Below are positions 38,040-59,330 of a DNA stretch of 64,000 nt, one piece after another. Both the position numbers and the translations under genes were made by a program. Below the pieces are notes generated by a model that was given only the letters and a program-made list of their open reading frames with translations, did no database searches and was not told the origin of the DNA. Each line of letters opens with the position of its first letter. Positions within the stretch are counted from its first letter, which is position 1. The DNA is from Psococerastis gibbosa (lineage: Eukaryota > Arthropoda > Insecta > Psocodea > Psocidae): contig OZ020485.1 in the NCBI GenBank assembly GCA_963971405.1, positions 48,915,469 to 48,979,468 of the forward strand, written 5' to 3'.

Positions 38040-38135
38040 ATTTACCATGAAATTTAATAAGAAATTACTCATTATTATCTATCTACCAATTGAAAATTGG
38101 AAAGCATTTTCGGGTAAACTCGTACCAATTCTAAA
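38040..38135 (-). mobile_element. Family B terminal fragment, inverted
   Basis: The reverse complement of the family B start (AAATTGGAAAGC, then TTCGGGTAAACTCG), directly upstream of the zinc-finger exon. Confidence 0.65.
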
Positions 38136-38159
38136 TAAATAAATGTATTGTTCTTACAG

Positions 38160-40095
<1,936 letters not shown>

Positions 40096-40230: not shown

Positions 40231-40625
40231 AAGAACCGGTCCGAGTTTACTCAAACATGCTTTCCAATTTATTAGCATTAGTAGATAGAGAAAATGAGTA
40301 ATTTCATGGTAAATAAATTTCCTATGGTTAGATTTCCGATAGCTCGGGGGGGGGGGGGGTGTCCACCTGACGTCACTGGAGGTGAGATAAATTCTAGGTA
40401 GGTCAGACCAACACATTACCACACAGCAATAATGGCAGGACACGCAATGCATTTGAGCGCGAATTTTCTATAATTTTTTCAAAAAATAATTTTTTTTGCA
40501 AAATTTCATCAATATTGACCGAGTAGTTTGCCCGGAAGTCGATTTACAAACAGACATTTCGTAAAAACCACTTTTTTGGGTTCCTGGGACCTCAAAACGT
40601 GTAAATCCGTTGAAATCTCGGAATC
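40231..40625 (+). mobile_element. Family B repeat, copy B4 (internally deleted)
   Basis: The left half has a G-run and TGACGTCA at 40368-40375. It then jumps from the TTTTTTCAAAAAATAATTTTT region directly to the CATCAATATTGACCGAGTAG region, ending at AAATCTCGGAATCG. The middle and the right terminus are missing. Confidence 0.7.
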
Positions 40626-40859
40626 GTTGTTGGGCTTTGGTCTCACATCTCAGTTACAGTTACACTCCTCCAGTCATCTCGGTTTGATACAACACTCCAC
40701 CATCTGCAGGCCTGTATGGACTCATACCTGGCCTTGGGGTAGTTGCTTGGAAGCATGTGATATTGTGGTTATTATTATTATTTTTTTTTTTTTTTAAGGT
40801 TAACCTGCTTTTGTTTTGATACCCAGAAATTCCTACTTGGTGGGGCCAATCTTCATACT

Positions 40860-40954
40860 TATCTTATGGAGAGAGGTGCAGTTCAGTTTTTAGTTTTCGC
40901 AAATAGCTGCCCTGTTGTAGCCTGTAGGAAAACTGCACCTCTTTCCATAAGATA
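40860..40954. repeat. Short palindrome
   Basis: Arms of 24 bp: TATCTTATGGAGAGAGGTGC.. (40860-40883) pairs with ..GCACCTCTTTCCATAAGATA (40931-40954) with one mismatch. The spacer is 47 bp. Confidence 0.8.
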
Positions 40955-41055
40955 ATCAAGTTTGGAAATGCACCGTGCCAACTGCTAGGTAGAGGGCCCT
41001 TCTTTTGGGTCGGATTAGTAGGCTCACCCAGAACAGATAAATCAGTATTTTAATT

Positions 41056-41251
41056 GACGAAGCAGTAGAATCCGGCATGCTACTAGGCCGTGGTCATGCT
41101 GAGAGCGTAATGTAAATAGGCTTCTTCCAAATATTTCGCCAGTATCTGCGGCCGAACTCTTCAGTGGAACTGCGTAGACTTCTAAGATTGTACTTATATC
41201 TCGGAGGTTCATCTCCCACTGTCTATCATCCCGGATTCTATTGCTTCGTCA
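41056..41251. mobile_element. Palindrome-ended element P, copy 1 (Penelope-related motif)
   Basis: Ends TGACGAAGCAGTAGAATCCG / CGGATTCTATTGCTTCGTCA. On the minus strand, 41127-41164 reads CTGAAGAGTTC..., then ..GGCGAAATATTTGG, a CTGANGA...GAAA arrangement like that near Penelope-like element ends. Two related copies are at 43131-43307 and 48425-48695. Confidence 0.6.
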
Positions 41252-41510
41252 CTTAACTCCGGCCGTGAAAGTCTGTAATAATATATTCACTATTTTATAT
41301 TTGGCGGTATTTCTATTGCCACGACAAAACGTGTCAGGTAATGTATTCATATTTCATTTTAAAAATAAACTCTGTGGTGGCAGTACATTAGAGTTCAGAC
41401 ATCTTTGTTTACATCAAAAACGTCAAATTTATTATTTTAATCAGTACATGTTTCTTTCAGCGAAATGAGTGATGTCTAACAAATCATACATCAGGTAGCC
41501 AATACCCAAT

Positions 41511-42255
41511 ATGTCTTTCGCCAACATCACATGGAGCTGGGTAGAAATGTGTGGTCCCGGGGGCCTTGTCGTTTGGTCCCCCACAAAACACGATATTGGT
41601 GCCTGTTTTCAACAAATCTTTCTACAAATACCTGTTTTGTGCATTTTCGCTATAGTCTCTGCATACTACTATGGTGCCCGATCTTCCAATAGAAATTCCC
41701 AACCGCATCGCAAGTGGGTTTTACGTGCAAGAGTGCTATTGAGCTCCTTAATTGCATTAACGCCTTTATGTAGAACAATAGTGGGGCTATCAGGTCCAAA
41801 TTCCATGTTTCGCGACGTCGATTATTTTACTTCTGCAGTGGAAATTGTAGCCTGGATTGTACACACTGGATATGTTCATTCTTTAACCAACAGACGAAAT
41901 ATCCACGGACCTGTGTTAGTTCGTGTGCTATGGACGCTAACCGCTGTGCTTTCAATTTTAAACTTACGGTCCCTTGTAATCATTCAGCGGGATCTGCCTA
42001 ATACAATTTTGCTGGGATTTGCAATTGTTGTAGTTCTTTTACAAGTGTTTTACGGATTAACGTTTTTTACATTTTGCTGTCGGGCGAGACAAAATGATCG
42101 TCATGCACAGTTTACTGAAAGGTCGTCCTTATTGGGCTCATATTATCATGGGTTCCGGGAAGATTTGGACTCGGAGTATCTTGGAGTCGGACTGAATTGG
42201 GATAATGTCCCGTCGTGGTTGCTGTTCTATTGGGTCAAGCCGCTAATTAAAAAGG
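41511..42255 (+). CDS. ABCC10: ABCC10 exon 1 (TMD0)
   Basis: Residues 1-248. It has several hydrophobic spans, then a polar linker and VPSWLLFYWVKPLIKKG, which leads into the first core membrane domain. Donor GTTTGT at 42256; the following in-frame read-through is intronic. Confidence 0.92.
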
Positions 42256-45200
42256 GTTTGTATATGATTTATTACATTAAAGAGCAAAATGGAGTATGGC
42301 ACTACCGGTTAGTTGTACTTTGTCGATTTTCACAGGACATATCGGTAGTATAAATTAAATTAAATAGAAGTTGCATTAGCAGAAATGCTCGGCTACGCTT
42401 CGATATATGCATGCCATGTTTATTTTAATGTGGCTTTCACATTAAAATAAAAATGTTTACACTCCTCCCTCACATTGTCTCTTAAAAATAATCTTGACTT
42501 GTAAGGCTGGTGACACACTATCCCTTCTCACCGTCCCGCTAAATGGGACAGGTTTGAAGGGATGGCATGAATGAATGGAGCCTAATAATGAGCGCGGTCA
42601 CACTGTTCCAGTGGCACCGTGCCGGCGATTATCGACCGGATAGTGCTGCGGCAGGGAATGTAACCGGACACGGAGCAAATAAATAAACATTCAGTTGAGT
42701 GAGGCAAGATAGCATTTCAACACATGTGACACTATAACTTGAGTAAGATTGATCGGATCAAGTCTATATACTACTAAAATCAGCAATTTTTAATCGGTCG
42801 TACCGGACAGTGTGTCCGCGTCGTGTCATCCCGCCAGAATGGATCCCTCTCAGCCGCATACGGAAAAAAGGGATAGTGTGTCGCCGACCTAAGTAACATT
42901 TTCATGACTTAATTATTTCCTTCGGTATTATAAGGTTGTATTGACCTCTATCTAATCCCCGGATTAGAGAGAGAGAGAGCGAAAGAAAATATGACATATG
43001 TGTGTATTTGTGGAGTTGTTATCAGCACAATAGCCAGATGTTCAATATTTGATATTTTAATTGTTGTCACACATGCGCTACAAGCGTGACCTAACATGGT
43101 CAATTCATCTGGCACGGTGACGGATTCAAATAACGAAGCAGTAGAATCCGGGTTGATAGGCCGTGGTCGTTCTGAAAACGTACTTGCAAAAGTTTCGTCA
43201 ACATCTGCGGTCGACATCTTTAGTAGAACTGCGTAGACTTCTAAGATTGTATCTCTGAGGCTCAGTTGCTGCTGAGCCTATCATCCCGCATTCTACTGCT
43301 TCGTCACATAACTTTGCCCGTGAAAGCCTTTGTAATTAGGCGCAGTTTCCACCGGCCTCTAAGTGCAAAATACACATACGGTGACGTGGTAGCAGACATT
43401 CAAGACTTAGGCGGGGTTTCCGACGACCTCTCGTTGCAGAATGCACATGACAATTTAAATGTGGTATCAAAGACCGGAACTATAAATTAATTTCTTTTGT
43501 AGAAATACAAGATATCAGAGTAAAGACTGAAAAGTCGACGCCTGAAAACACCTCAAGACAACAACAACAGCACATGACATTGACCGAAATTTGAATTTTT
43601 CTTTTTATAGAAATCTATTAAAATGTTTGTACTTATCATATCCCATGACGCCATTTTTTAATTTTAGTTTGTTTGTTTGTGATTATACTCATGTGATCAT
43701 GATCATTGATCAAATTTAACTATGGCATAGAGTAAAACAAAAATTTCCGTCAATGTCATTTGCATTCTGCAATGAGAGGTCGGTAGAAACCCCGCCTTTA
43801 TTAATGATATCTGCTAAAACGTCACCGTATGTGTATTTTGCACTTAGAGGTCGGTGGAAACCGCGCCTTAGATTGATCCAATGCACAATAACGAATTAAC
43901 CATGCCAGACTGAACTATAGCTGACAACATTAATCCTGGTATGTTACTTCTTCTTCTTATGGTGCACAACCACTAGGGGTTGGTTTGCAGCAGCATGCTC
44001 CGGATCCTCCATTCCGTTCTGTCCTCGGCCAGCCTCTTTAGGTCCCTGTACGTCGTGCAGTTGAAATCTCTGAGCAGCTGGTCCAAGTACTCAGCACGCG
44101 GGCGGCCTATCGCGACATAACCATACATATGCCCTTCCAAGATTGTGTGAAGTAATCCATCGTGGCGTAACGTGTGACCGATCCAATTGGCTCTCCGCTT
44201 AGCAATAGATGCCCCAATTTTTCTCTCTTCCCCTATGCGTTGCAGTACTTCCTCATTGGTTACCCGGTCCATCCACGTAATGTTTAACATTTTCCTATAG
44301 CACCACACTTCGAAGGCTTCAATTTGGCTCCGCATAGTTTCCGCTATGGTCCATGTTTCGCACCCATACATCATTATACTCCACACAAGAGACTTGAGGA
44401 GAGATTTTCTTGTGTCAAGGGTTATATTTCCAGACTGAAATATCTTCATCTTCTTATTCAATGCCAATCTCCCCAGGAATATCCGATTCTTTATTTCCTT
44501 GTTGCTTCGCCCATCTTCTGTTACTATTTTACGTTACTTTTACGTTACTATTACGAAAGCAGGTTAAATAAACACGGCCACTTAATAGAGCCGGTCAGGA
44601 CATGTAGAGTGATGATTCGATCTCCTACATTTACCCGAAAGGTTGTTGATTGTGGCTACATTTTCTGGCCATGCTTCGGAGGGCATGTATAGCAGGCGGT
44701 CCTGTGGCTTTCTAGTTGAGTGTAAGAGTGGGCTTTATAGACCTAACTGCGCTAGATTGGCATTTTAATGAGTCATTATTTATTTTATGTTATCTACGTA
44801 GTACGTGCAATTTGATAATTGGTTTCTATTTTTGCAGGGGAAGACAACAAAATAAGAACCTGTGATGACATATACGATCTGCCCAATGGCTGGGACTCCT
44901 CCAACCTGTGCACGTCTCTTCAGCAGGTCCTTCACAACAAGGAAGCCACCAACCGTCCGATCACTCTTTTCCGCGGTCTCCACAACTGCTTCGGCCTCGC
45001 CTTCTACTCTCTGGGCTTCCTCAAACTCTTCGCCGATTTGACTAATTTCGCGGGGCCGATTTTACTCAAAGAACTGGTCAATTTTATGGAAACAACCGAC
45101 GATGACTATTCCAAGGGCTATGTTTTAGCGTTTCTGCTGTTTCTCTCTACGCTTTTGGGGTCGCTTAGTAACGTGATTTTTACATTTCTAGTCTCTATGG

Positions 45201-48200
45201 TCGGTCTGCGCATGCGCGGAGCTGTGATTTCTGTTGTCTACCGCAAAGCCTTGCATCTGTCCTATTGGGCGATCAATAGTTTTACTGTGGGTGAAATTTT
45301 AAATTTTATGAGCACTGACACGGATCGGATTGTTAATTCGTGTCCGAGTTTCCATACTTTTTGGAGCATTCCTTTACAGGTAGGTGGAACATTAATTAAT
45401 TAATAAAAATAAACAACAAATTATAGATTATATACATTGTAGTATTGAATAAAGCATTGCCTTTATGCAATTAAGTAAGCTCACAGACCTGTTCGGTTAG
45501 ATAGTTGTGTAGTAGTGCTAACCTGTCTAGCAACACGAATCATGTCAATTTGAGCATAAGTAGAGGATTTGGCGATTACTGGACTTGTCGGAGCGGTTAA
45601 GACGACGCCCTGGTTAGGCGTAGATCGTGGCTTCGAATCCCGCCAAGCCCAGTTTTTTCTATATCCTCTAATTTCGGTTATAACAAATTATAGATACTCT
45701 AATACGATATTCCTTGTTATTAAAAGTGTCCGACGGTATCTCTGTAATTTGCAATGTCTTAGAGCTATTAATTTCATTGCATGTAGCTGTGCCATTTTAC
45801 CTTTTTCACAAATACGTTGGCCATGGCCGGGGTGGCGTCTATAGCAGTTTTGATACCCATAAAAAAAGAACCGGTCCGAGTTTACTCGAACATGCTTTCC
45901 AATTTATCAAAATTAGTAGATAGAGAAAATGAGTAATTTCATGGTAAATAATTTTCCTATGGTTAAATTTCCGATATCTCGGGGGGGTGTCCACCTGACG
46001 TCACTCGTCACTGGTGGTGAGGTAAATTCTAGATAGGTCAGACCAACACATTACCACACAGCAATACTGGCAGGGCACGCAATGCATTTCAGCGTGAATT
46101 TTCTATCATTTTTTCAAAAACATTTTTTTGTACAAAACCAAATACTTTTTTGGGAAAGCAACCTGTCCGGTTTCGTTACTAAATTTAACACCTAAAACAT
46201 ACCTGAAGGTAGAAATCATCGATAGAAAGGTGTTGCAGAAAAATTATTTTTTAGTCATTTTTCATTAAAATTTAGTCATTTTTATTTTTTTACCCCCAGA
46301 AGCAAACTATCAAGGGGCAAGCGACCCCCCGCATTTTATCAACATTAACAACAACTACAATATATGTGAATTTAAAAGAAATCGTTGGAACCGTTTTTGG
46401 GAAATAATTTTTTTAGACGTTTTTTTGAAGTTTTTTGAAAATAAAACCCCCCCAAATTGAGTTAGCCCAAAATAAAAAAAATGGTCCCGAGGTATGATTT
46501 TTGTGAACCTACATGCCGAATTTCATCAAAATCGACCGAGTAGTTTGCCCGGAAATCGACGCACAGACAGACAGACAGACATTTCGTAAAAACCACTTTT
46601 TTGGGTTCCTGGGACCTTAAAACACATAAATCCGTTGAAATCTCGGAATCGAAAATTTCGACCGTCACAAAGCTTTCCTTATACTACGTATAAATTGGAA
46701 AGCAATAATAACAATAATGCCTGGAGAATTTTTATGAGCCTAGGCATCCTTACAGTGGCCCATTGGTCCAATGTAAACGACTATGGATTTCGGACATTAT
46801 TTATATTGTTTCCACTTTGAATATTTGTTCATTGGTTAACTGGCATACGGCTGGTATGTGTACTCGATGTCAGTCTACACAGGCTACAAGCGATAATGGA
46901 CAAGCTGACACAAACTCACAATTGACGCTATGTAACAGGTTACAACATGACTTAAGAGTGTACAGCCTCTAGGAAATTGACAGCCCGAAATTTAATACTT
47001 TTTGTTTTTTATTTAATTAACTGAGCAAGTTATTAAAGATTTGGCTCATTTAAGTTATAGAAAACTACTTCATGCATCATATAATGAGGTATTTTTAATT
47101 TTCGAAATTGTAGTTTTTTCATAAACACGATAATAATTTATAAACAATACCTTTTCGCATAAAATCGTGTTTATGAAAAAACTACTAATTCGAAAATTAA
47201 AAAATACCTTATTATTATGATGCATGAAGTAGTCTTCTGCAACTTTCATGAGCCAAATCTTTACTAACTAGCTTAGTTAATGAAATAAAAAATAAAAGTA
47301 CTACATTTCGTGCTGCCAATTTCCTACGGGCTGTACACTTTTAACCTAGTACAGATTTGAGTCCCGTACATTGAAAACTATGCAGCGATATAGCTCTATA
47401 ATTTAAGATGTCTTAGAGCTCTTTAATTTCATTGCAGATAGCTGTGTCATTTTACCTTTTGTACAAACAAGTTGGCATCTCATTCCTAGCTGGGGTGGCG
47501 TTTACAGTAGTTTTGATACCCATTAACAAAATGATTGCCAACAAAATCGGCTCACTTAGCACCCGCATGATGGCAGCCAAAGACGAACGAGTGTCGGCCG
47601 TGTCAGAGGTTCTGCGGGGGGTTCGCGTGCTCAAATTACACGTCTGGGAGGAACATTTTCTCGACAAGGTACGTTTTTAAAAAAGTAGTACCAAGTATCA
47701 CGCTATGGACTGCATACGGCTCAGAACTCCACAAACTACTGAGCAAACTACAAGTTTTGGGAAAGGATTGACAATATGGAGAATCTATGAACCGCTGTAC
47801 TAAAACGGAGAATAGCGTATAGCATACAGCACCGAAATAGACGTAATACTCAATAGAGAAGAAATAGTCCGTTCTACGAAAGCGCAGCGTCTAAGATGGC
47901 TGGGTTCAAAAATGTCAGAGAACCGCATTTCGAACAAATTGGACAAAGCATGTAAGACGACTGCAGTGCAGTACTGGATGAATTAGAAACTCGAGTTGGA
48001 AATTCTTAGATAAGGGACCGTTGTTCTAGACCAGGGGTTCCCAAACTGTAGTCCATGGACCACCGGTGGTCCACAGTCATATATCAGGTGGACCAAGGGC
48101 TGAAGTAAAAAATAAGAAAATAAAACAGGTGAGTTATTGCAATTTGAAATAAAATACAGCAAGTCTTGGCACTGATCTACAAAATCCGCCCGAAACCAGT

Positions 48201-51200
48201 TCTAAACATTTAATCAAATATTAGCACGTAATCATAGGCGCAAGCTACTTAATATTGGTCCTAGAATTAACGATTTTCCTATCACAGCCATAGGGGTCAA
48301 CGGAAAATCATAAAATAATCTAGTGGTCCACGGACAAAATAGTTTGGGAACCCCTGTTCTGGACAACTATTAAAGTGTTGCCCATTGAGGCATAATTAAA
48401 AACACTATCAAGACCAGAGTTACGTGATAAAGTAGTAGCATCTGGGATGATTGGCCGTGGTCAATATGAAGGCGGACTTCCAAACGTTTCGGCAATAGCT
48501 GCGGTCAGCATCTTCAGTGGCACTGCATGGAGTAGATTCTAAGATTCAGCAGTTGCTGCTGGGCCTCCGAGATTCAATCTTAGAAGTCTACGCAGTGCAC
48601 TGTAGATGTTGAGCGCAGGGGTATACGAAACGTTTCAAAGTACGCTTTCAGATTGACTGGGGCGCGGATCGCCCGCGGATTCTACTGCTTCATTAGCCCA
48701 TTAAGGGTTGTAAAACTAGGAGGAGAAGAAGAATCCGGCTTTGGACCCATTAAATTATCCAATGCAGGAGGTAGGCATCCCCCAATTTCGCTCTGATCTT
48801 GGTCAATAGTGATGAATCCTAAAAAGTGGAAGGGCAGAAAAGAGTGGAGGAGGGCTACATGTTGCACCTGGGCGACTAAAGCTTATTGCTGATAATTATG
48901 ATGGCCCATCCTAGTGTCCATCCTAACACTAGCTATCTACTCACCTCTCGGCAATCCGTTAGATGGCGCTACCATAGCAGTGCTGATGCATGTTAAAGAA
49001 CTAATATAGCTGGACATAAAACGTATGAATTTGTTGAGATAGTATGTATAAGCCACCTACTCACTTTTCTTGGCTGTCCGTTCATGCATGGCAAAGAACT
49101 ACAATAGCTGGACATTAAACATGTGAAATTTATGCATCAAATAGTAGGTGTAAGCCACCTACTCGCTTCTCGGCTATCGGCTCATGCATGTCAAACATCA
49201 ACATCATTTCTAAACTTCCATTTCAGATATTAGGCGTAAGAACGAGGGAACTGAAATTCCTAGCCCAGCGAAAATACCTTGACGCCCTTTGTGTCTACTT
49301 CTGGGCCTCGACGCCCATCCTAGTGTCTGTCCTAACACTAGCCACCTACTCACTTCTCGGCAACCCGCTAGATGCCGCCACGGTATTCACCACTGTTGCT
49401 CTGCTCAACATGCTCATTGGCCCGTTGAACGCGTTTCCATGGGTGCTGAATGGCCTGGTGGAAGCGTGGGTGTCCTTGAAGAGACTGCAGGGACTAATGG
49501 ACGCCCCTAATATGGAGTTAAGGGACTATTACCTACCTGGTAACGAAGCTTTGGCAATGGAAGAGTGTTTTACTGATTGGAACGTTGTGCAGGTGAGTTT
49601 TTTCTGGTGAAGATGAGGAAGAGTATTGGAAATACCCACGGACGATTTTCCCAGTCTCGATTTGTCGACGTCTTTTCCATTGTGGCCATGGAGCTTGCAG
49701 GAGATTTCTTGTAGATTTCTTGACGATATCGGAAGCTAGCGTGCAGCCGACTGCAAGAATATGCACGTTTTTTCCCTAGACACGCTAGATCATAGAAATC
49801 TTCTGAATCAGACTCAGTGGTTTTGCACTGACTATTCACGAAGATCTATCGGCTACATTGGAAAAGACTTCGAAAAATCGCGATCGTCCGTGTGTAGTAT
49901 GATGCAGCAATTAAGAGGATGTGGAACGGAGATAGGGCGCCAAACTCAGCCAAACCCCTACATTCTATGGTGCGATCTGTAATGTCCGATTTGTAAAGTT
50001 CAAAGGGGCTATGTTTTCTTTAACAACAAATATATTTTGATTTGATTTGAGTCTCGGACCTCGACCCCCTGATTCATAGAGAAGGCCTATTCCTGACCCG
50101 ATGAACTGCAAACAGTGCTGATAAATTACCTTTCTGGTTTCAGGACAACTATAGGGGAGGGTTCTCTGCACCTGGCGGACTGCAAAATGTCTCACTCTCG
50201 ATCGAAAGTGGGCAGTTGGTGGGAGTCATTGGGAATGTGGGTAGCGGCAAGTCGGCACTTCTGATGTCCCTACTGGGGGAAATGTACAAAACGTCCGGGT
50301 CTGTGTCTGTGGTCAACTGGGAAGGAGGTATGAGCCTACAGAGAAACATTTTGGTAATGCTTGTTATACTTATTATAATAAAATATTCCGCGTTTGCTCT
50401 CGATCGAGATTCGAGAGTTGGACGAAGTTATGGGTAATATTGGTATTAGCAAGTCAGCACTTCTCATCTCCCTGCTGGGAGAATTATACAAAACTATATG
50501 GTTTGTGGTCAACTTGGAATCCTTGGCCTCCTGCTACATCTTATCAATGGCTGGCCATAGGAGACGTGGCGGGTGGCCCCAGAAATTCAAAAATATATTT
50601 TTGGCGGGATCCTATATGAAACTCTACTGATCACCATCATGAATATACAGCCCCAGTGTGTAATTCCTGTGTGACTCCCTCCTGACTCTTCACTTCTGAG
50701 TATTCAACTTACTCTGGTACCAGTCCCACTCTTCTAAGATAGTCCCCAATCTGCTTTCTGATATATATTCCTTGGTCTTCCTCTTCTTTGTGTTCCCTCT
50801 ATTTCTTCCTCCAGCCATTTCCGCGCGTACCTACTGTTATTCATACAAATACGTGTATATGTAATTACAAAAATAATATATTTGTTTAGGATTTGGACTG
50901 GTGGCGCAAACGCCTTGGCTACAGCATGCTTCGCTAAGGGACAATGTTCTCTTCGGGAAGAGCTACATGGCTTCGCGGTACAAGACAGTTCTCGACGCAT
51001 GTGCCCTCTCGGAAGACATCGCAGCGATGCATGGCGGGGATATGGCGCAAGTTGGGGAGGGCGGAGTTACACTGAGTGGCGGCCAGAGGGCGCGGCTGGC
51101 GCTTGCTCGGGCCGTTTACCAGGTAGGGTTATTACTTGTAATGGACTACTTTGCTGTCGAAATAAAATAAAAATTATCTGGCAAAATGCCCTCCTCTGAT

Positions 51201-54200
51201 AGGGTTGTCAATTCCCATGTATGACGCCAATGATCAACTTATAGGGAGAGACATATCGAATCACTTTTTATTTAATTTCATTACTTACTTTGCGTGTCTG
51301 TGGAAACACGCATTTAAATGGGTTGTCCTTTATTAATTTACAACTTTGTTGATCTGAATTATAATTATAAACTTAAAAATTAATAGCTGTAGTTTTATTA
51401 GTTGTTAGTTTTATGTGTAGATTTTCAACTAAATAGTAAAGTTGCTGTAAATTCAAAAAATATTTATGGCGGGAAGGATGCTCTACCCAAGTAAACCAAC
51501 CAGAATTCAGAATTAACAATCAGAGGGAGGATTCTCCATAAGTTAATCATGGATCCTATAATTGGGAATTGACAAGTGACAACCCAATCACAGCAGGTAA
51601 TTAATTCTATAGGAAAGTACTTACTTATTTACGTTATCCATCGCCCACTCTTGGCGTTACCGCCATCTGGTGTTGCGCCTGCCAGTATAGTGATGATGTC
51701 TTTGTTAGGGCTCTGGATTGATTGACACGTTTTCTCTTTGCAGGACAAAGATGTATACCTGATAGACGATGTTCTGTCTGCACTGGACCCCCCTGTGGCT
51801 CGTCACGTTTATAGTAAAGTCATCTGTGGCCTGCTCAAGGAGAAAACTCGTGTCTTCTGCACCAACAACGTACAGTTTCTCACCAACGCTGATGTAGTCG
51901 TGCAAATGGAGGATGGTACTGCCGTTCAAACAGGTGAGCACATTAAGAAATTGTTTTCGTTTCTGTTTCAAGCATTTCGTTCATAAGCTAAGCGCTAGGG
52001 TACTTTCTTTTGTTGAACAAAAAATCAGAAGTTAAGAGAATATATCGAGTGTAGATGTTTGCCACCCCTGCATCATCGCAAAATCAGTCAGTTTTCAGTT
52101 TTTTATTTAATTTACTAAGTATTTTATTAGAATAAGGGCTAATTCTCATTTGCTCCTTATAACGTATTGTTTGTTTTTTGTACCCAATCGCCAACTGTTT
52201 TCGCTATAACAAATGCCGACGACTTTTTTTTTAAATTTAAATTATACAATACAGGTAAAGTATAAAATAAAATCGTCGACTTGCCCCGGAAACTCCCAGC
52301 GCGCCCCACAGCTTATATCGAGGTCAAAACAGTGATATACAGTGAGCTATAGCGGCCTTGTAATTTCATTTTTCATTAGTTCCTTTGAATTTATGCCATT
52401 TTTCTTACTCAAAACTCTTATTTTTCAATTTTTGACTATATTAAATAGAATATTAAAGCTTATTTTGGTCATTTTCAATTTCGAATTAATACACAGGCTT
52501 TGTTCACGTTTGTTCACGGTTATAGTGACCAGTTCGCGGTGGAGAGAGATGTCGCTTTAGTTTTCTCCGACCTCAATGCTCCTGGGCAGCCCTTAGTAGA
52601 GCTTTAATACCGGGCCAAAAACCCAACCCCCCTCAGTTATGTCTACAAGCAACAACATAATAAAATGCTTATTTCATTTTTCAGGCAAGCCATCGGAAGT
52701 TCTACCCAACTTTGACGCGCTCGCCTGTTGCGACACCGAGTCCATGACGTCTTACAAGGAATCCCGTGACGAGTCCGACCCCGTACGGCCCGAGGACGAA
52801 GAAATAAGCGAAACCGGCGCCGTGAAGGCTGCCATCTACCGGCGCTACGCCGCAGCTGTAGGCCCCGCCCTCACTTTCTCCATCCTCGTATCTCTCCTCC
52901 TCATGCAATCTTCCCGCAACATCTCCGACTACTGGCTCTCCATCTGGGTGTCGGCCGGCAACATTACCGAGGCCCCGTCCCATACACGCTTCTATCTCAC
53001 CGTTTACACCGTACTAGCCTTGTCAAACACGTTTTTCACGCTCTCACGCGCGTTTTTGTTCGCCTACGGTGGTGTAAACGCGGCCAGAGTAATCCATCAG
53101 AAACTTTTAAAACGCGTCGTGTATGCAAGATCCGAATACTTTGATATCTCACCGCTAGGGCGCATCTTGAATCGGTTCTCGAGTGATACATACACTGTGG
53201 ATGACTCGCTGCCGTTTATTACTAATATTCTGTTGGCGCAAGTGTTTGGTCTTACGGGTTCGCTGTGTATTACTATGTACGGTATGCCTTGGCTGTGTTT
53301 ACTGATTGCTCCATTGATTCCGATTTACCATTCGTTGCAACGGTCGTACCGGTTTTGTTCGCGAGACTTGAAAAGGCTGGCCAGTGTGACGCTAAGTCCG
53401 CTTTATGGTCACATCAATGAGACGCTGCAAGGACTGGTTACTATTCGTGCTTTTAGGTAAGTAGTTTCCAATAAGCTTACTGTCGCTTTTGGCGTCACAT
53501 AAACTTAAATGAAGACTCAGTCACCCGTGATGCATATCAAAAATAATAACAATGCAATGGCACATATTTAACGAATGGACATGGTCAATTTCAAGAATAT
53601 ATGTACCAAATAGTAATTGCTGCTTTTAGGGTTGGTCATGTGCCCTTAAAGCAGCAGCTATGAGCTAATAATATCTAGGTACTTTGCCTGCTTTATCCTG
53701 ATTGCGGTGATCCCGCAGTTCTGGCTGGTAAAGCTTTGATTGGTCAGCAAAACCTGCGAAACGAAACAAAAAGTCTAATCAACATACTTTAGTAACGAGT
53801 GGTAATGAGACAAGAAGGGGAAAATCCGTATGAGTGGAGAAGTCAAATTTTACATGAAATATAGATCATCATGATCTGACAGCAAAATACAGACTAAACG
53901 AAATAATTGGACTACCTCAATCTTTGCTCTGCTTTGAGTTCTATGGGTGGGGTGGGGCATTCGCTTCCCGCCTAAAATATTATTTTTTAATTTCTGGAGC
54001 CACTCGCCACGTTTTCTGTGGCCAGCCACTAAAAAAACGTAGCAGGTGGCCCGAGGATTTAAAAAAATATTTTTGGCGCGCTGGAATTTTCCATCTCTCC
54101 TATATATTGTAGAACTCTCGCACTACTGTGAAACAGTACTTATAGTAGTTTTATTTTTTTAGATCTCTTTCACATTTCCAACAACGCAACGAAGAGCATC

Positions 54201-57200
54201 TGGACAACTACCAGCGTGCGTTATACGCGAGCTATGCAGTGACGGGGTGGCTGAGCGTGCGGCTGCAGCTGATGGGCGTTGCCATAGTGACGGGCGTGGC
54301 ACTAGTGGCCGTATTGCAACATCAATTCGACGTCGTGGAACCAGCGCTGGTCGGGCTAACCGTCGCCTACGCGCTCACCATCAACAGTCTGCTGTCTGGT
54401 GTCATATCAGCGTTTGCAGAGACTGAGAGGGAGTTTGTGGCCTTGGAGCGAGTGTCGCAATACATCGATGAGTTCGAACCTGAGGTTTGTTCTTATCTTT
54501 ACATGTATTGGCAATTGTTGATAGCAATGGTATAATATTATTTAAGATAGGGTTAGTTGGGCTTACATTGACTGTTGCGTTAGTGGTCATTAGAGGCAGG
54601 GACTGTGGACAATTGATTAGAGAGCTTGCATTTCAAGCGGGAGAACGGTAGTTTTACTTTTACCGCTCCTTATCCTCTTGGAGGGTCGGCGGCATGACAG
54701 CAGCGTTTCCACACAGTCCTGTTCTGTGCGTCCTCGGTTGAGAGCCCCAATCTTCTAATATCTCCGACAATCTTTCTACTCAGTGTAACTTTCAGCCCCC
54801 CTGGTGGTCTTCGTCCTTGTATCTCTCGGCTAATTACTCGTTTGACTAGGTGGTTTTCATCTCTACCTAGTACCTCGCCAGCTCTTTTCCCTTAGTTTCT
54901 CTTGTACGTCACGGGTTTCCATCTCATGCCTTATATCTTGGTTTCTACGTTGGTCTCCCAGCGTTACACCACCGGATCTTCTTAGCATTCGCATTTCTGC
55001 TGCGTGAATATTACATTATTAAAATTATATTTTTTTAGGAAGAAACAGGCACGCACCCACCGTACGCGTGGCCCAGCCAAGGCGTCGTCGTCTTTCATGC
55101 GGTCTACATGAAGTACCGCGACCATTTGGCGCCTAGTCTAAACGGAATCAGTTTCGAGACGAGGCCGGCTGAGAAAATCGGCGTGGTTGGCAGGACTGGA
55201 GCGGGGAAGAGCAGTCTGATTGCGGCACTGCTTCGGTTGGTTAAACTGTCCGGTGGACATATACTCATAGACAACGTCAATGTTAATCAAGTGCTTCTCT
55301 CGGGACTCAGGTGAGATAATTGTATTATGAGAAAATCGGAAACAGTAAATCCTTTTCGATTAAAATCCAATATCACGAGAAATATTGATCGCAGAGCCAT
55401 AAATGAGATGTCATAAAGTTTGTTTTCCAACGCCTGCTTTCAGCATTTTTGCGCAACCCCGTCAGCCTGGCGGGGGGCGTGAGGCTATTTCTTAACTTGA
55501 GGCACCCTAAGGGCAGACGTCACCTCAGGGTGAAGGAGAGTTGACTGACAGGGTAGATCTCGTGATTATTGTGGGTACCACTTGGGGAATATAGAAAAGT
55601 CCCACGATGACCACGACTCGACACGCATAAAGACTGACTGCCAGTCTCAGCACGATATCATGTCCCGCCATGTTCCCCTGTCAACTACCAAGTTTGCTGC
55701 AGTTTGAACAGGCTCTGTTCTGGTAGATTCCTATTGGTATGGCTATTGGCTATGTAGCAGCGTTGAAAATGGCAAAAATAGAGGCATGTTCATGTTCATC
55801 ATTGTCATCATAAATAGTCATCTCCAGTTGCCCGGGTGTGATACGTGAGCCGAGCCTCCTCCCCTCCCTCCTGTTTCTCCATTTTTTTTTTATTATTCGG
55901 CAGTATTATTTTTATTATTCCAGTAACAGTCCCGCTTGTCCCCAGTCTGGTTCCTGTATCTTTCCCTTGGTCTTCCTCTTCTTCGTGTCCTCTCTCTTTC
56001 TTCTTCCAGCCATTTCTTTCCGCACCTTCTGTTGTCCATTCACTTTACGTGTCCGAACCATTGCAGTCTCCTTCTCGCTATCTTCTCCGCCAGTGGTCCT
56101 TCGACTCCGATCTCTCCCTCTCTTCTTGTCCCGTGCTGGGCTGTTCTGTTGAACTTCATTTCATCCAAAGCCAAGTAGGAATAGATATTAACCCCAAACT
56201 GAACACTGGGTGTGATAATATACCTTAGTAGTGATGTGAAATAAAAACCCAGTATTCATTTAAATTACAGGTCAAGAATAGCAGTGATTCCACAAGACCC
56301 GTACTTGTTTAAAGGCACTATTCGTGAAAACCTGGATCCGCTGTTAGAGTATTCTGACGTAGAGGTTTGGCGGGCTGTTGAAAAGTGTCACTGCAGAAGA
56401 CTGATTGAAGATTTGGGCGGCTTTGCTCATGCTGTCGAGGCCAGTGGCAGGAATTTTTCGTCAGGGCAGCGACAGCTTCTGTGTCTGGCGCGTGCTGTGC
56501 TAAAAAATGCCAAGGTAAATGGTTTAAGTCTCCTAGCGGTCCCACAGTCACTCAGTTGATAAGAGTGAATCCTTATTATACAATCTCCTATTACACACTC
56601 GAATATTGTTCCAATATTCGATCCAATAAATAAGGGTCCAAGACTTGGTGCAAAAACTACGAGGGAAGAGGCTCAGCGGGTGGGGAGACGTGCAGAGGAG
56701 AGAGGCATCAGCGCTTATACGCAGAGTGGGAGAGGCGATGGTACCTGGACGTCGAGCACGTGGGCGCCCAAAGCTCACCCTGGAGAGGAAAATTATAAGC
56801 GACCTGCAAGAAACCGGGTTCACATGGGAGGACGCGCAAGACAGAACCGTCTGGAAACGCCACAGCTCTGCCGCCGACCCTCCACGAAGAAATGGCGCGG
56901 AAAAAGAAAGAAAGAAGAAGAAAAATTCGAAAGTGTAATTACCTAACTTCAGATAGTATACTTCAACAGTAACATTAAAAATATTTCTTCGATCGAATAA
57001 AGTATTGGAGTGTGTGATCAGGGCCAATAATTAAGGAAAATTGCCAGCACAACAGATTGTTAAAATACATTCTGTAGAGTAAGGGGCTGTCTGTTAATCA
57101 CGTGAGGTTCGAAAGGGCATACAGGGTTACAAAGGGTGCCGGATCACCGGGGTTCCGCTGTATCGGGTAGGTCCGCTTCACTACTAGTATTTTCTGTTAA

Positions 57201-57491
57201 CGTCAATGAGGGTATTTATTAATTTATGTATATATTCGTTTTTAGATTGTTTGCATCGACGAAGCCACAGCTTCTGTGGACCAAGAGACTGACAGGCTGA
57301 TTCAGCTGGCAATCCGGTCGTGTTTCCGACAGAGCACAGTGCTGACTATAGCTCATCGGATGACGACTGTGATGGACAGCGACCGACTGCTGGTGCTGAG
57401 GGACGGAGAGGTGGTCGAATTTGATACCCCGGACAATCTAGTCTCGGACACTTCCTCCTATTTCTACAGGTTGTCTCAGAGAACGAAGTAA
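41511..57491 (+). CDS. ABCC10: ABC transporter subfamily C member 10 (MRP7-like), 12 coding exons
   Basis: Joined exons 41511-42255, 44838-45379, 47438-47668, 49227-49592, 50144-50327, 50890-51122, 51744-51933, 52685-53456, 54163-54484, 55039-55310, 56271-56514 and 57246-57491 give 1448 codons plus stop, close to vertebrate ABCC10. Order: TMD0 (1-248), TMD1, NBD1, TMD2, NBD2. NBD1: Walker A GNVGSGKS (658-665), signature LSGGQ (751-755), Walker B YLIDD (772-776), but Asn808 where the switch His is expected. NBD2: Walker A GRTGAGKS (1246-1253), signature FSSGQ (1348-1352), Walker B with catalytic Glu1373, switch His1404. The family exports amphipathic anions and conjugates across plasma or internal membranes; the substrate here is unknown. 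The start ATG follows an in-frame TAG at 41496-41498. A possible AATAAA lies at 58142. Confidence 0.94.
42501..42893. mobile_element. TIR element (about 390 bp) in ABCC10 intron 1
   Basis: Inverted ends share GGCGACACACTATCCCTT: left TAAGGCTGGTGACACACTAT, right GGGATAGTGTGTCGCCGACC. The interior is non-coding. The duplication at the ends is ambiguous, so the superfamily is left open. Confidence 0.7.
43131..43307. mobile_element. Palindrome-ended element P, copy 2
   Basis: Ends AACGAAGCAGTAGAATCCGG / ..GCATTCTACTGCTTCGTCAC. On the minus strand, 43186-43223 holds CTAAAGATG..., then ..GACGAAACTTTTGC, with the spacing seen in the other copies. Confidence 0.6.
43339..43867. mobile_element. Harbinger-like compound foldback MITE (copy M6)
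   Basis: 529 bp with perfect TTA duplication (43336-43338, 43868-43870). Ends GGCGCAGTTTCCACCGG and CGGTGGAAACCGCGCC. GACGTGGTAGCAGACATT is intact in the left arm and decayed in the right. About 100 bp of extra sequence (near 43460-43570) sits in the left half of the inner element. Confidence 0.85.
43942..44525 (-). mobile_element. LINE 3' end with reverse-transcriptase C-terminal segment
   Basis: The minus-strand frame 43973-44467 (164 codons) reads SLVWSIMMYGCETWTIAE..., then KRRANWIGHTLRHDGLL and GRPRAEYLDQLLRD. This is the C-terminal region following the RT domain in many arthropod non-LTR retrotransposons. It ends at a stop followed by a (AAG)n-like tail (43945-43962 in reverse). It is 5'-truncated, with no catalytic RT motif, and lies in ABCC10 intron 1. 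Confidence 0.85.
44593..44772 (+). mobile_element. tRNA-derived SINE (family S, copy 6)
   Basis: GTCAGGACATGTAGAGTGAT, a decayed B-box region (GGTTGTTGATTG), the body CATGCTTCGGAGGGCATG and the GGTTTTCTAG-like tail, close to ABCC10 exon 2. Confidence 0.7.
44838..45379 (+). CDS. ABCC10: ABCC10 exon 2 (TMD1, first part)
   Basis: Residues 249-429, from GEDNKIRTCDDIYDLPNGWD through membrane spans to VGEILNFMSTDTDRIVNSCP, the conserved intracellular loop. Acceptor TTGCAG, donor GTAGGT. Confidence 0.94.
45580..45652 (+). tRNA. tRNA-like sequence (probable pseudogene or SINE head)
   Basis: 73 nt fold roughly as a tRNA. The acceptor TGGACTT pairs with AAGCCCA with one mismatch. A perfect 5-bp anticodon stem ACGCC/GGCGT encloses the loop CTGGTTA (anticodon GGT, nominally Thr). 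The T-loop is TTCGAAT and T6 follows. D and T stems are imperfect. Eukaryotes normally read these Thr codons with AGT, so a working tRNA is unlikely. Confidence 0.35.
45739..45861 (+). pseudogene. Decayed partial copy of ABCC10 exon 3 with its acceptor region
   Basis: 45739-45861 matches 47395-47525: the intron end (ATGTCTTAGAGCT..TTAATTTCATTGCA) and the first 28 codons of exon 3 (TAGCTGTG.CATTTTACCTTTT, then GGGGTGGCGT and TTTTGATACCCAT). The acceptor CAG has become CATG, and a small deletion removes codons, so it cannot splice or code. Family B copy B5 begins where the match stops. Confidence 0.85.
45866..46706 (+). mobile_element. Family B repeat, copy B5 (full length)
   Basis: The clearest complete copy. 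It has GCTTTCCAATTTAT (45894-45907), a G-run, TGACGTCA (45996-46003), a (GACA)n tract near 46567, AAATCCGTTGAAATCTCGG and ATAAATTGGAAAGC (46690-46703). It is non-coding and lies in ABCC10 intron 2. Confidence 0.85.
46956..47340. mobile_element. Long-palindrome MITE with TTAA flanks
   Basis: 385 bp in two arms of roughly 165-190 bp (AGTGTACAGCC / GGCTGTACACT at the ends, ATCGTGTTTATGAAAAAACT at the turn). TTAA lies at 46952-46955 and 47341-47344, which suggests a piggyBac-type target; the outermost two bases do not pair. It lies just upstream of ABCC10 exon 3. Confidence 0.7.
47438..47668 (+). CDS. ABCC10: ABCC10 exon 3 (TMD1)
   Basis: Residues 430-506: IAVSFYLLYKQVGISFLAGV, then IPINKMIANKI and the coupling segment KDERVSAVSEVLRGVRVLKL. 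Acceptor TTGCAG, donor GTACGT. Confidence 0.95.
47700..47975 (+). mobile_element. LINE reverse-transcriptase C-terminal relic
   Basis: 47850-47935 reads EEIVRSTKAQRLRWLGSKMS after LRRENSV-like sequence, the ARRLRWLGHV-type segment after the RT domain. Stops interrupt both sides. It lies in ABCC10 intron 3. Confidence 0.65.
48032..48356. mobile_element. hAT MITE with CAGGGGTTCCCAAACT ends
   Basis: 325 bp with ends CAGGGGTTCCCAAACT / AGTTTGGGAACCCCTG, perfect for 16 bp. The flanks TTCTAGAC (48024-48031) and TTCTGGAC (48357-48364) are an 8-bp duplication with one change. This end sequence is widespread among animal hAT MITEs. Confidence 0.92.
48425..48695. mobile_element. Palindrome-ended element P, copy 3
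   Basis: Ends GATAAAGTAGTAGCATCTGG / GCGGATTCTACTGCTTCATT. On the minus strand, 48480-48517 has CTGAAGATGCTGACC..., then ..TTGCCGAAACGTTTGG, the best-preserved CTGANGA...GAAAC arrangement of the three copies. A second GAAACGTTTC lies near 48629. Confidence 0.65.
48897..49190 (+). pseudogene. Decayed tandem copies of part of ABCC10 exon 4
   Basis: 48905-48975 matches exon 4 (CCCATCCTAGTGTC.., CTAACACTAGC.., CTCTCGGCAA.CCG.TAGATG). The segment AGCCACCTACTCACTTCTCGG recurs at 48931, 49051 and 49153 with spacing 120 and 102 bp, each time followed by a TTCATGCATG..AAAGAAC tail. Frames are broken and there are no splice borders. Confidence 0.85.
49227..49592 (+). CDS. ABCC10: ABCC10 exon 4 (end of TMD1)
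   Basis: Residues 507-628: KYLDALCVYFWASTPILVSV, LNMLIGPLNAFPWVLNGLVE and the linker to NBD1. Acceptor TTTCAG, donor GTGAGT. Confidence 0.95.
49593..50143 (+). other. ABCC10 intron 4
   Basis: No recognised element. Antisense frames across 49533-49839 are open by chance or from unidentified sequence; they have no motif. Confidence 0.6.
50144..50327 (+). CDS. ABCC10: ABCC10 exon 5 (NBD1 Walker A)
   Basis: Residues 629-689. Walker A is GNVGSGKSALL. Acceptor TTTCAG; donor GTATGA at 50328 leaves one base for Gly690. Confidence 0.94.
50390..50520 (+). pseudogene. Decayed copy of ABCC10 exon 5 core
   Basis: It matches 50190-50322 across CTCTCGATCGA, GGGTAATATTGGTATTAGCA (versus GGGAATGTGGGTAGCGGCA), AAGTCAGCACTTCTCATCTCC and GTGGTCAACTTGGAA. 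The translation would read GNIGISKSALLISLLGELYK, so the Walker A glycine is lost. A small deletion lies after YKT and no acceptor is present. Confidence 0.88.
50640..50870 (-). mobile_element. LINE-like 3' fragment
   Basis: On the minus strand it reads ARKWLEEEIEGTQRRGRPRN and YQKADWGLS, the GRPR-containing end of a non-LTR element. A relative is near 55920-56070. It lies in ABCC10 intron 5. Confidence 0.5.
50890..51122 (+). CDS. ABCC10: ABCC10 exon 6 (NBD1 Q-loop and signature)
   Basis: Residues 690-767. Q696 in FGLVAQTPW; signature LSGGQRARLALARAVYQ. Acceptor GTTTAG, donor GTAGGG. Confidence 0.95.
51123..51743 (+). other. ABCC10 intron 6
   Basis: AT-rich; no element recognised. Confidence 0.6.
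51744..51933 (+). CDS. ABCC10: ABCC10 exon 7 (NBD1 Walker B; switch residue is Asn)
   Basis: Residues 768-830. Walker B/D-loop is VYLIDDVLSALD. The stretch RVFCTNNVQFLTNADVVVQM has Asn808 at the position of the switch histidine. Acceptor TTGCAG, donor GTGAGC. Confidence 0.95.
51934..52684 (+). other. ABCC10 intron 7
   Basis: AT-rich; no element recognised. Confidence 0.6.
52685..53456 (+). CDS. ABCC10: ABCC10 exon 8 (linker and TMD2, first part)
   Basis: Residues 831-1087: acidic linker (DESDPVRPEDEEISETGAVK), then spans and SPLGRILNRFSSDTYTVDDS, the conserved intracellular loop, to ETLQGLVTIRAF. Unusually GC-rich for this window. Acceptor TTTCAG, donor GTAAGT inside an apparent TAA. Confidence 0.95.
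53457..54162 (+). other. ABCC10 intron 8
   Basis: It holds a fragment near 53985-54090 (GTGGCCAGCC.., GGTGGCCCGAGG, AAAAATATTTTTGGCGCGC) that resembles 50545-50610. No complete element. Confidence 0.5.
54163..54484 (+). CDS. ABCC10: ABCC10 exon 9 (end of TMD2)
   Basis: Residues 1088-1195. SLSHFQQRNEEHLDNYQRAL leads into the last spans, then TEREFVALERVSQYIDEFEP. Acceptor TTTTAG, donor GTTTGT. Confidence 0.95.
54655..54995 (-). mobile_element. LINE C-terminal relic
   Basis: Minus-strand fragments read IRWCNAG and WGSQPRTHRTGLCGNAAVMP, then a PPTLQE end, like the terminal part of a non-LTR element with its CCGCCGACCCTCC 3' signature (also in 56638-56930). It is broken by many stops and lies in ABCC10 intron 9. 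Confidence 0.6.
55039..55310 (+). CDS. ABCC10: ABCC10 exon 10 (NBD2 Walker A)
   Basis: Residues 1196-1285. A-loop region VFHAVYMKYRDHL; Walker A GRTGAGKSSL. Acceptor TTTTAG, donor GTGAGA. Confidence 0.95.
55431..55790 (-). mobile_element. SINE-like repeat family D, copy 3 (inverted)
   Basis: The reverse complement of 36240-36620, through CGTCAGCCTGGCGGGG and CATGTTCCCCTG to TTTGCTGCAGTTTGAAC. It lies in ABCC10 intron 10. Confidence 0.75.
55830..56160 (-). repeat. Low-complexity pyrimidine-rich tract with LINE-like fragment
   Basis: CT-rich sequence yields long overlapping frames on the plus strand that are compositional only. The region TGTGATACGTGAG..CTCC matches 30600-30640. The CTTCTTCCAGCCATTTC part resembles 50790-50820. 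Confidence 0.45.
56271..56514 (+). CDS. ABCC10: ABCC10 exon 11 (NBD2 Q-loop and signature)
   Basis: Residues 1286-1367. Q1294 in AVIPQDPYLF; signature NFSSGQRQLLCLARAVL. Acceptor TTACAG, donor GTAAAT. Confidence 0.94.
56638..56930 (+). mobile_element. LINE C-terminal fragment
   Basis: The plus frame reads LRGKRLSGWGDVQRREASAL, VPGRRARGRPKLTLERKI and DAQDRTVWKRHSSAADPPRR, the typical end of arthropod non-LTR elements. It is flanked by an imperfect inverted repeat (TTACACACTCGAATA near 56590; TATTGGAGTGTGTGATC near 57004). It lies in ABCC10 intron 11. Confidence 0.8.
57246..57491 (+). CDS. ABCC10: ABCC10 exon 12 (NBD2 Walker B, switch His, stop)
   Basis: Residues 1368-1448: IVCIDEATASVD with catalytic Glu, LTIAHRMTT with the switch His, then a short C-terminus ending in RLSQRTK and TAA. 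Acceptor TTTTAG. Confidence 0.95.
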   Translation: MVCIDEATASVDQETDRLIQLAIRSCFRQSTVLTIAHRMTTVMDSDRLLVLRDGEVVEFDTPDNLVSDTSSYFYRLSQRTK

Positions 57492-57766
57492 CATCGGAAG
57501 GTGGAGCAGTGATATTGCTAGTTGCTCGTAGTGACCCATTGCTGGTGCTTAGAGACAGAGAGGTAGTCGAATTTGACACCCCGGACAATCTAGTCTCGGA
57601 CACTTCATCGTATTTCTACAGGTTGTCTCAGAGAACGAAGTGACATCGGAAAGTGGAGCAGTGATGTTCATAGTTGGTTATAGTGACCCATCGCTGATGC
57701 TTAGGAACGGAGAGGTGGTCGAATTTGATACCCCGGACAATCTCGTCTCATAAATTCCTCAATTTT
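57381..57766 (+). repeat. 152-bp tandem duplication of the ABCC10 gene end
   Basis: The last 111 bp of coding sequence plus 41 bp of 3' flank repeat with an exact period of 152 bp, starting at 57381, 57533 and 57685. The third copy fades near 57766. Copy 2 keeps 35 of the last codons almost unchanged and ends AAG TGA at 57641. Copies 2 and 3 lie after the real stop, so they should be in the 3' untranslated region. Confidence 0.93.
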
Positions 57767-57769
57767 GAC

Positions 57770-58190
57770 AGGAAATATCGATCGTAGAGCCTTCATAAAT
57801 AGCCGTTAAATTAGCAGAAATGTTTCTCTAAATTTATATGTGACATGTGACCTTCACTAACACCATTTGGCCACAGTTCATTAATTCCTTCGCGACTACC
57901 GCGCCAAACGTTTTTTGTACAAATCAAATGTAATAATTGTGGCCAATCTGTGGTAGAAAGAGGTTGGCTATGTATCATATATCAAAATTCTCGGAAAAAT
58001 TTCTTCTGCTTTGATATTTCTGACATCTCTAAGAATGAAATATTTTATTTTTACACTTACACACATATTCCAAATTGACATAGACATGGTATACAGTTTA
58101 TGTATTACGTCTAAGGGACCTTGTCTTGTAATATTTTTCCAAATAAATTAATAAGTCTTTTCCCCACCGGAACCCACTAAAATCATGCGG
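57770..58190. repeat. Fragment of a GATCGTAGAGCC-type dispersed repeat
   Basis: GGAAATATCGATCGTAGAGC starts a region that also contains GGCCACAGTT, TTTTTTGTACAAATC and ATTGTGGCCAATCTG. These recur, inverted, around 27360-27560. A candidate AATAAA is at 58142-58147. Confidence 0.45.
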
Positions 58191-58300
58191 TCCCGTGGTG
58201 AAGGAAGGAGTCTTCCCCTAGGGTGCCTGAAGTTAATAAAGAGACTCACTCCCCTCGCCAGGCTGACAGGGTTGCTTACTGCAGGCATTGGAAAACAACA
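58190..58300 (+). mobile_element. SINE-like repeat family D, copy 4 (3' part)
   Basis: It matches the last 100 bp of the family: CCCTAGGGTGCCTGAAGTTA, GAGACTCACTCCCC and CAGGCTGACAGGGTTGCTTA. Confidence 0.7.
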
Positions 58301-58604
58301 AACAGTTATTATTAAGGGCAATACTATTTTCTTCTCGAAATCCTTCGGTCAGTTTGGGCAATATAGGCTAGGCACTAGTTATAATGAGCATTTTTCGTAC
58401 GGTATTATTTAAAACTGAAATAGTCGAGTCTGTAGCGAACTAGAGTATAAAATGGAAGTTTGAGGTTTGAGACTCGGCAAAAAAGGAAAACTTTTCCGCC
58501 TGGGTCCACCCAACCCTACTGGATACCTTACCTTCATTGGCATGGGAAAACGCAGCTATTTTAGTTACATATGTATATCTTCCACATTTACCTTATAATA
58601 CTTC

Positions 58605-58980
58605 GTCAATGGTAAATAAAATAAAATAACTTTGCCACGTATCTAACAGGTACAGGAAATCCGTTACAATTCCGCCATAAAAAAATTAATAGGCGCAATT
58701 CTCTTTAGTCTTATTGTTCGCCTTTTGTTTTTTTCAATAAAGTCGTATTCAATTCAATTCATTAAATATGTAAAGAAATGTGGATCACATGCTCACATTT
58801 TTTATGGTTATTTAGTGTAAACCTGGGGCCGCTTGGTTGTCTCTTCTCCAGATTTTCACCCTATAAGTAGTGCTGCATGTCGGTAGCCTGACGATGGTCT
58901 AGCGTTGAAACCGGTCGCTTTTAATATTTTTCAGTAATAGGCCTACTTGACAAAGTTATTTTATTTACGGAAACGCAGCT
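58605..58980 (+). repeat. Region with Penelope-type end motif
   Basis: 58888-58911 reads CTGACGATGGTCTAGCGTTG followed by AAAC, the CTGANGA...GAAAC pattern seen near Penelope-like ends. Short inverted repeats (AAATAAAATAACTTTG near 58618 and its complement near 58957) flank it. Confidence 0.45.
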
Positions 58981-58984
58981 GCTG

Positions 58985-59330
58985 GGCATTTTGCTGAGCG
59001 TAACATCCCAAATAGGAAAGGCGGTCAAGGCAGAGGATCCTCTACCAGTCCTCGGACGTTGATCCTCATTTGGTTGTCGTACCACAACGTTTTTTAAAAT
59101 TATAATTTACAATTTTCCATGGCATTCCAAATTAGCAGGTACAAGCCTAAAGTAAAATTATTGTTTGAAATATTGTTTTAAAAATGCGTTCGTTATTTTG
59201 TAATTATTTAAATCGAATTTATTGTAATACGTCATTACACTAGTCAATTTATTAATTTATATGGTATATTGTTTTGCTATTATCAAATGAAAATAAACTT
59301 GGTGGTTGTAATGTAATTGTAAATGTAAAA
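58985..59330. other. No gene recognised
   Basis: AT-rich; nothing identified. Confidence 0.4.

Follow-up and report, generated by a model that had tools for sequence, protein, structure and literature searches.

The window analysed here is a stretch of 64,000 nucleotides from chromosome 2 of the barkfly Psococerastis gibbosa (C2:48915469-48979468; assembly of 409,210,807 bases). It contains the gene ABCC10, also named MRP7, and partial copies of four of its own exons lie close to the originals. The gene model has GT and AG at 11 of 11 junctions and yields one open frame of 1448 amino acids. The names ABCC10 or MRP7 are borne by many of the 120 relatives listed, and the closest among these 120 matches was a protein of the louse Polyplax serrata (54% identity over 99%), in keeping with Psocodea. 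In a tblastn comparison, the Polyplax protein matched each of the 12 ABCC10 exons independently. A search of the whole genome with this protein, in which the best 31 of 108 first-look candidates were scored, gave 32 matches; 12 were the ABCC10 exons and 20 were in other ABC genes. ABCC10 appears to be single copy and intact.

Each exon was aligned with the non-exonic DNA of ABCC10 (40500-59000, exons masked) using Smith-Waterman alignment on both strands, with 40 shuffles as a control in each case. Both this analysis and self-BLAST recovered copies of exons 3, 4, 5, and 12. The exon 3 copy matched 47391-47530 with 79% identity (score 82, shuffle maximum 29), the exon 4 copy matched 49313-49381 with 87% identity (score 93, shuffle maximum 30), and the exon 5 copy matched 50195-50323 with 74% identity (score 84, shuffle maximum 28). 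For exon 12, the copied region 57530-57749 matched 57378-57597 with 88% identity (score 174, shuffle maximum 30). No copy was found in the same region on either strand for the other 8 of the 12 exons, and their best scores of 24-27 were inside the shuffle range. An earlier reading made without database searches (the sequence-only reading) had described partial copies of these four exons beside the originals and had proposed self-alignment of the locus as a check. All four copies were recovered, with scores of 82-174 against shuffle maxima of 28-30, and the presence of copies of four exons in ABCC10 is confirmed. They are all in direct orientation and close to the source exon, with start-to-start offsets of 1654, 409, 202, and 152 bp for exons 3, 4, 5, and 12, respectively. 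The copies are fragments of 69-220 bp that have diverged by 12-26%, and the Jukes-Cantor distances, in the same order, are 0.24, 0.14, 0.33, and 0.13.

The structures of the copies are summarized in Table 1. In the exon 3 copy, the acceptor AG has been lost, an 8-bp deletion shifts the frame, and no 3' part of the exon is present. A tRNA-like sequence is located just upstream of this copy at 45581-45651; it obtained 32.9 bits with Rfam, and ARAGORN made no call. For exon 4, a copy extending from 48905 to 49190 had been described previously. The 69 bp at its start were retained in our analysis, whereas the remainder turned out to be a tandem array with exon-4-like cores of only 19-30 bp. The copied part of exon 5 is the Walker A region, and in the copy the Walker A glycine is mutated to serine (G>S). 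The repeat fragment that adjoins the exon 5 copy has a relative at 53966-54059 on the opposite strand, and from its inverted ends we read it as resembling a miniature inverted-repeat transposable element (MITE). At exon 12, a tandem repeat with a 152-bp period and 2.4 units begins inside the exon, and the copies represent its units 2 and 3. The previously described exon 12 copy is thus present, but it lies 3' of the ABCC10 stop codon (57489-57491) and outside any intron. In unit 3, a stop follows just beyond the 68-bp match. The copies of exons 3, 5, and 12 did not resume beyond the adjoining repeat, and the exon 4 copy did not extend on either side; all seven of these comparisons were under the 95th percentile of 60 shuffles.

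Table 1. Exons, exon copies, and adjoining repeats at the ABCC10 locus (positions in the window)
Feature	Position	Strand	Description
ABCC10 (MRP7) gene	41511..57491	+	12 coding exons, intact 1448-aa frame
Decayed exon 3 copy	45737..45867	+	about 47 bp from the end of intron 2, then some 90 bp from the start of exon 3
Dispersed repeat	45863..46709		adjoins the exon 3 copy at its 3' end
Exon 3 (source)	47438..47668	+	gene model
Exon 4 copy	48904..48972	+	69 bp from the exon interior, without splice sites
Tandem array of about 100 bp	48986..49203	+	between the exon 4 copy and exon 4
Exon 4 (source)	49227..49592	+	gene model
Exon 5 (source)	50144..50327	+	gene model
Decayed exon 5 copy	50397..50519	+	exon 5 bases 52-180 of 184, without its splice sites
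MITE-like repeat fragment	50518..50609		adjoins the exon 5 copy
Exon 12 (source)	57246..57491	+	last coding exon, gene model
Exon 12 repeat unit 2	57530..57681	+	exon 12 end and 38 bp of 3' untranslated region (3'UTR), after the stop codon
Exon 12 repeat unit 3, truncated	57682..57749	+	ends near a dispersed repeat at about 57759

Next, the copies were compared with the whole genome at the DNA level. The search skips very common words and scores the best candidates, and it therefore excludes close dispersed copies, not every distant one. For exon 3 and for exon 4, the only matches were the copy and the exon itself, and for exon 12 they were the repeat and exon 12. The exon 5 copy matched only itself, its source with 74% identity being below the reach of the search. 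Equally good alignments to unrelated loci, which had been named as an observation that would speak against the sequence-only reading, were thus looked for, and no other close match was found in the genome. Because the searches returned only the copies and their own source exons, both transposon capture and duplicated haplotypes are unlikely. In the first case, transposable elements would have picked up parts of exons and left them close by. Dispersed repeats do adjoin the copies of exons 3 and 5, and another is located near the end of the last exon 12 unit. However, the exon pieces have not spread with the repeats, and no fragment was found to travel with an element to other loci. In addition, the repeat at the exon 3 copy has four more copies in the window (4380, 8656, 21370, and 40229), all of which start at the same boundary and contain no exon sequence. 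Transposon capture is therefore regarded as very improbable.

An artefact of the assembly, caused by duplicated haplotypes or collapsed repeats, has a still smaller, almost negligible probability, and nothing was found in its favor. The divergence of the copies contrasts with a heterozygosity of 0.64%, and the assembly is based on HiFi reads of about 55x and has a quality value (QV) of 60.4, according to the excerpted part of the genome report, which also gives a repeat content of 30.10% (PMC12559846). Furthermore, the pieces are partial, lie at different offsets, and have private indels. The copies are thus not an assembly error, an explanation against which the sequence-only reading had cautioned.

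With good confidence, we attribute the copies to at least four separate duplication events at the DNA level, each small (about 70-220 bp) and local, in which parts of exons 3, 4, 5, and 12 were placed close by. An origin at the level of DNA is indicated because the exon 3 copy holds intron sequence and the exon 12 unit holds 3'UTR sequence. The origin appears to have been local, because the genome searches gave only the copy itself and, in three of four cases, its own source exon. Separate events are indicated because the identities differ (79, 87, 74, and 88%) and the breakpoints do not continue into one another. All four copies share the properties of local exon-fragment duplications: they are near the source, in the same orientation, not dispersed, and similar beyond chance. 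The repeated local duplication that had been proposed before is supported by the differing breakpoints and divergence of the copies, their direct orientation, and their nearness to the source exons.

The duplications would have arisen through errors in DNA copying, for which replication slippage, template switching, and break repair are candidates. At exon 12, such errors would have generated a clean tandem repeat, and at exons 3, 4, and 5 short pieces located 0.07-1.5 kb from the source. The copies lie in the gene or directly behind its stop codon; they would have been neutral because the gene stayed intact, and they would have decayed since. Dispersed repeats may later have inserted at, or trimmed, three of the copies. 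We consider the divergence of the copies too great for microhomology at the breakpoints to be read.

The coding changes between copies and originals were counted by codon, and gapped codons were excluded. The exon 3 copy had 3 synonymous and 9 other changes, the exon 4 copy 5 and 4, the exon 5 copy 11 and 15, and unit 2 of the exon 12 repeat (57530-57643) 9 and 2, one of the 9 synonymous changes being TAA to TGA. Unit 3 had 4 synonymous and 4 other changes compared with the original, and likewise 4 and 4 compared with unit 2. Summed over exons 3, 4, and 5 and unit 2, with unit 3 excluded, 28 of the 58 changes were synonymous. The same script gave an expected synonymous share of 27-34% if both sequences were neutral; by our own estimates, it would be about 41% when a neutral copy is paired with a constrained original and about 80% when both sequences are constrained. 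The summed changes thus fit a pair of one constrained original and one neutral copy. The exon 4 piece, the exon 5 piece, and unit 2 contain no premature in-frame stop. However, the open frames weigh little, because simulated neutral decay also left these pieces open in 87, 46, and 72% of the cases, respectively. Unit 2 was also considered as an alternative C terminus, and this candidate was rejected: exon 11 ends in phase 0, and by eye the 38-bp spacer is without an in-frame acceptor. Donors inside exon 12 would delete a part that we take to be the H-loop.

The sequence-only reading had further suggested that the copies might be failed attempts at alternative tandem exons. None of the four copies has a usable acceptor and donor, and none has the full exon length. 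Three of the four reach no splice site at all, the exon 4 and exon 5 copies being exon-internal and the exon 12 copies following the stop codon, and the exon 3 copy is the only one to extend into a splice-site region, in which the acceptor is broken. An open frame compatible with the flanking exons was not found either, as the exon 3 copy is frameshifted, unit 3 is stopped, and the others are incomplete.

A genuine-looking array of such exons is present elsewhere in the genome. A second ABCC gene is located on the minus strand at C2:50199001-50227000 (L020-L022), about 1.2 Mb from ABCC10. In this gene, an exon for part of the second membrane domain is present in 12 tandem copies (about C2:50205.7-50218.1 kb), with single exons for NBD1 and NBD2 on either side. 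The offsets of the array were read from the observed pattern, and one common length of 221 nt was imposed. At this length, GT donors are present in 12 of 12 copies, AG acceptors in 11 of 12, and open frames in 12 of 12. As 221 is not divisible by three, the frame would shift if all of the exons were skipped or if two or three of them were used. A Pfam search found the same 12 positions, one of them below the curated cut-off. The array can be viewed as predicted tandem alternative exons of the MRP type. The gene itself may be called MRP-like, a label that rests on the array, the queries having been ABCC10-type proteins. With 12 exons, the array exceeds the cluster of 8 exons that is given for Drosophila MRP in the excerpt of PMC6071210. 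The second ABCC gene also contains several decayed partial copies of both NBD2 exons (L020 reverse complement, about 6858-6960 and about 7040-7394), and 2 of its 7 single exons have local copies.

It is improbable that the ABCC10 copies are remnants of mutually exclusive exons like those of insect MRP genes, or unsuccessful steps towards such exons. The direct orientation, the position adjoining the source exons, the array in another ABCC gene of the same genome, and the Drosophila cluster are all compatible with this view. However, the array has kept nearly all of its splice sites and all of its open frames, in contrast to the ABCC10 copies, and it corresponds to ABCC10 exon 8, an exon without a copy. 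The suggestion of failed alternative exons was thus not borne out, and the ABCC10 copies are most probably debris of local duplication.

To put these results into context, local copies were counted at other loci, using a flank of 2.5 kb and a score of at least 45. Exons with a local copy made up 4 of 12 in ABCC10 compared with 1 of 58 in ten comparison loci (Fisher 0.0024). The second ABCC gene was kept outside this set because of its array. The single positive exon belonged to an ABCC-type gene on C1, of which two stretches were used (1 of 7 exons); the copy there is a tandem duplicate of an exon end, the donor, and the intron start, with an offset of 86 bp and 92% identity (L019:1549-1716). 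Another ABCC-type gene, located on C14 (0 of 9), four myosin loci (0 of 23), and two TCP1 loci (0 of 12) had no exon with a copy. The neighboring ABCG gene in the window likewise had none (0 of 7; its exon limits are approximations based on open frames), as the sequence-only reading had stated. Its claim that the duplications are specific to ABCC10 has to be given up, because the second ABCC gene on the same chromosome has copies and the C1 gene has one.

Local direct duplications outside of repeats were also counted for whole stretches. For this count, the array at 48986-49203 was merged with the exon 4 event, and events that were at least half covered by repeats were dropped. ABCC10 had 4 duplications in 16.5 kb, and the second ABCC gene had 6 in 28 kb. 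Such duplications occur elsewhere too, with 9 in 265.9 kb: 2 in the 47.5 kb of the rest of the window, 1 in four flanking stretches of 10 kb (40 kb), 5 in 110 kb of fixed-step stretches (C1-C3 only), 0 in the 43.4 kb of the myosin and TCP1 loci, and 1 in the 25 kb of the C14 and C1 ABCC-type genes. A rule-based count over one set of 150 kb gave 6. All of these numbers are rough, as protein or profile matches served to identify the control exons, the ends of the loci truncated the flanks, and repeats were recognized within about 330 kb only.

Several of these observations weigh against a series of ordinary local duplications. The 4 duplications in ABCC10 compare with about 0.56 expected from the counts for whole stretches (Poisson about 0.003, by our own arithmetic), and the fraction of ABCC10 exons with copies is far above that of the control exons, although both P values overstate the case because ABCC10 was selected for its copies. 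All four events hit exons, though roughly one quarter of the gene is exonic. Constraint on the source should prolong the detectability of a copy about two-fold by our estimate, which would explain only part of this exon bias. Finally, the 9:2 ratio of unit 2 is more coding-like than expected for a neutral copy (about 0.008 when taken alone and uncorrected for several comparisons). This skew is unexplained, and it may be due to chance. If ordinary local duplication is the correct explanation, ABCC10 would represent the upper tail of an uneven genomic duplication rate.

A refinement of local duplication, which does not exclude it, is that the ABCC genes of this barklouse, or these two, are a hotspot of local exon duplication, which would have left an array in one gene and debris in ABCC10. 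Copies were found for 4 of 12 exons in ABCC10, for 2 of 7 in the second ABCC gene in addition to its 12-exon array, and for 1 of 7 in the C1 gene, in contrast to 0 of 42 at the ABCG, four myosin, and two TCP1 loci. The duplication densities of the two chromosome 2 genes likewise contrast with those of the five other groups, which range from 0 to 4.5 per 100 kb. However, the C14 gene does not follow this pattern, the exons within one gene are not independent, and, when the preselected ABCC10 is removed, the difference shrinks to 3 of 23 versus 0 of 42. In addition, the six events of the second gene come largely from the array, the copies of which were probably retained by selection, and the single event in the window flanks does not point to a regional effect. 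For the two ABCC genes, the excess is suggestive but comes from a small, post hoc sample, and a hotspot seems rather unlikely, if less so than capture or failed alternative exons.

A few additional observations were made. At C19:27866907-27870371 (minus strand), ABCC-type matches lie in an uninterrupted frame of 1275 amino acids, which is perhaps a retrocopy. At C19:32574405-32578062, seven neighboring myosin-head matches cover one and the same region of the profile (about 374-455), a pattern expected where muscle myosin has its alternative exons. Within the window, open frames at 22281-23307 resemble a transposase of the mariner/Tc1 type by reading of their translations, and a tandem array with an 84-bp period at 38135-39109 is zinc-finger-like, the domain again being read from the translations.

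Decayed local pieces of exons are the expected raw material of alternative exons, most of which fail, and ABCC10 displays such debris within an intact gene. The contrast with the full array about 1.2 Mb away provides a practicable way of testing whether genes with arrays receive more duplicates or only retain them better. If the hotspot were real, the two genes would show the supply and the selection of tandem exons side by side. The ABCC10 finding alone is modest, whereas the excess in ABCC10 and the second gene together is worth a survey. A literature search for decayed exon copies in an insect ABCC10 or for an MRP array in a psocid yielded none among the matches listed.

The copies can be compared with three known systems. 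The exon 12 copies resemble an ordinary minisatellite-like duplication, as they are tandem units of 152 bp across the coding end and the 3'UTR, and they stand out only by their location and the ratio of unit 2. The Drosophila MRP array, as described in the excerpt of PMC6071210, shares the ABCC family and local direct exon duplicates, but it resembles the second ABCC gene and not ABCC10, in which the copies are partial, have no usable splice sites, and belong to exons 3, 4, 5, and 12 instead of exon 8. The closest likeness is to the unannotated tandem exon duplications of Ivanov and Pervouchine 2022 (PMC9013439), which, in the excerpted text, likewise consist of sequences that are homologous to an exon and lie in the introns or an untranslated part of the gene to which that exon belongs. 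Compared with that description, every ABCC10 copy is partial and decayed and is known from DNA alone, and four exons of one gene are affected. The ABCC10 copies are a fresh example of this known class of duplications.

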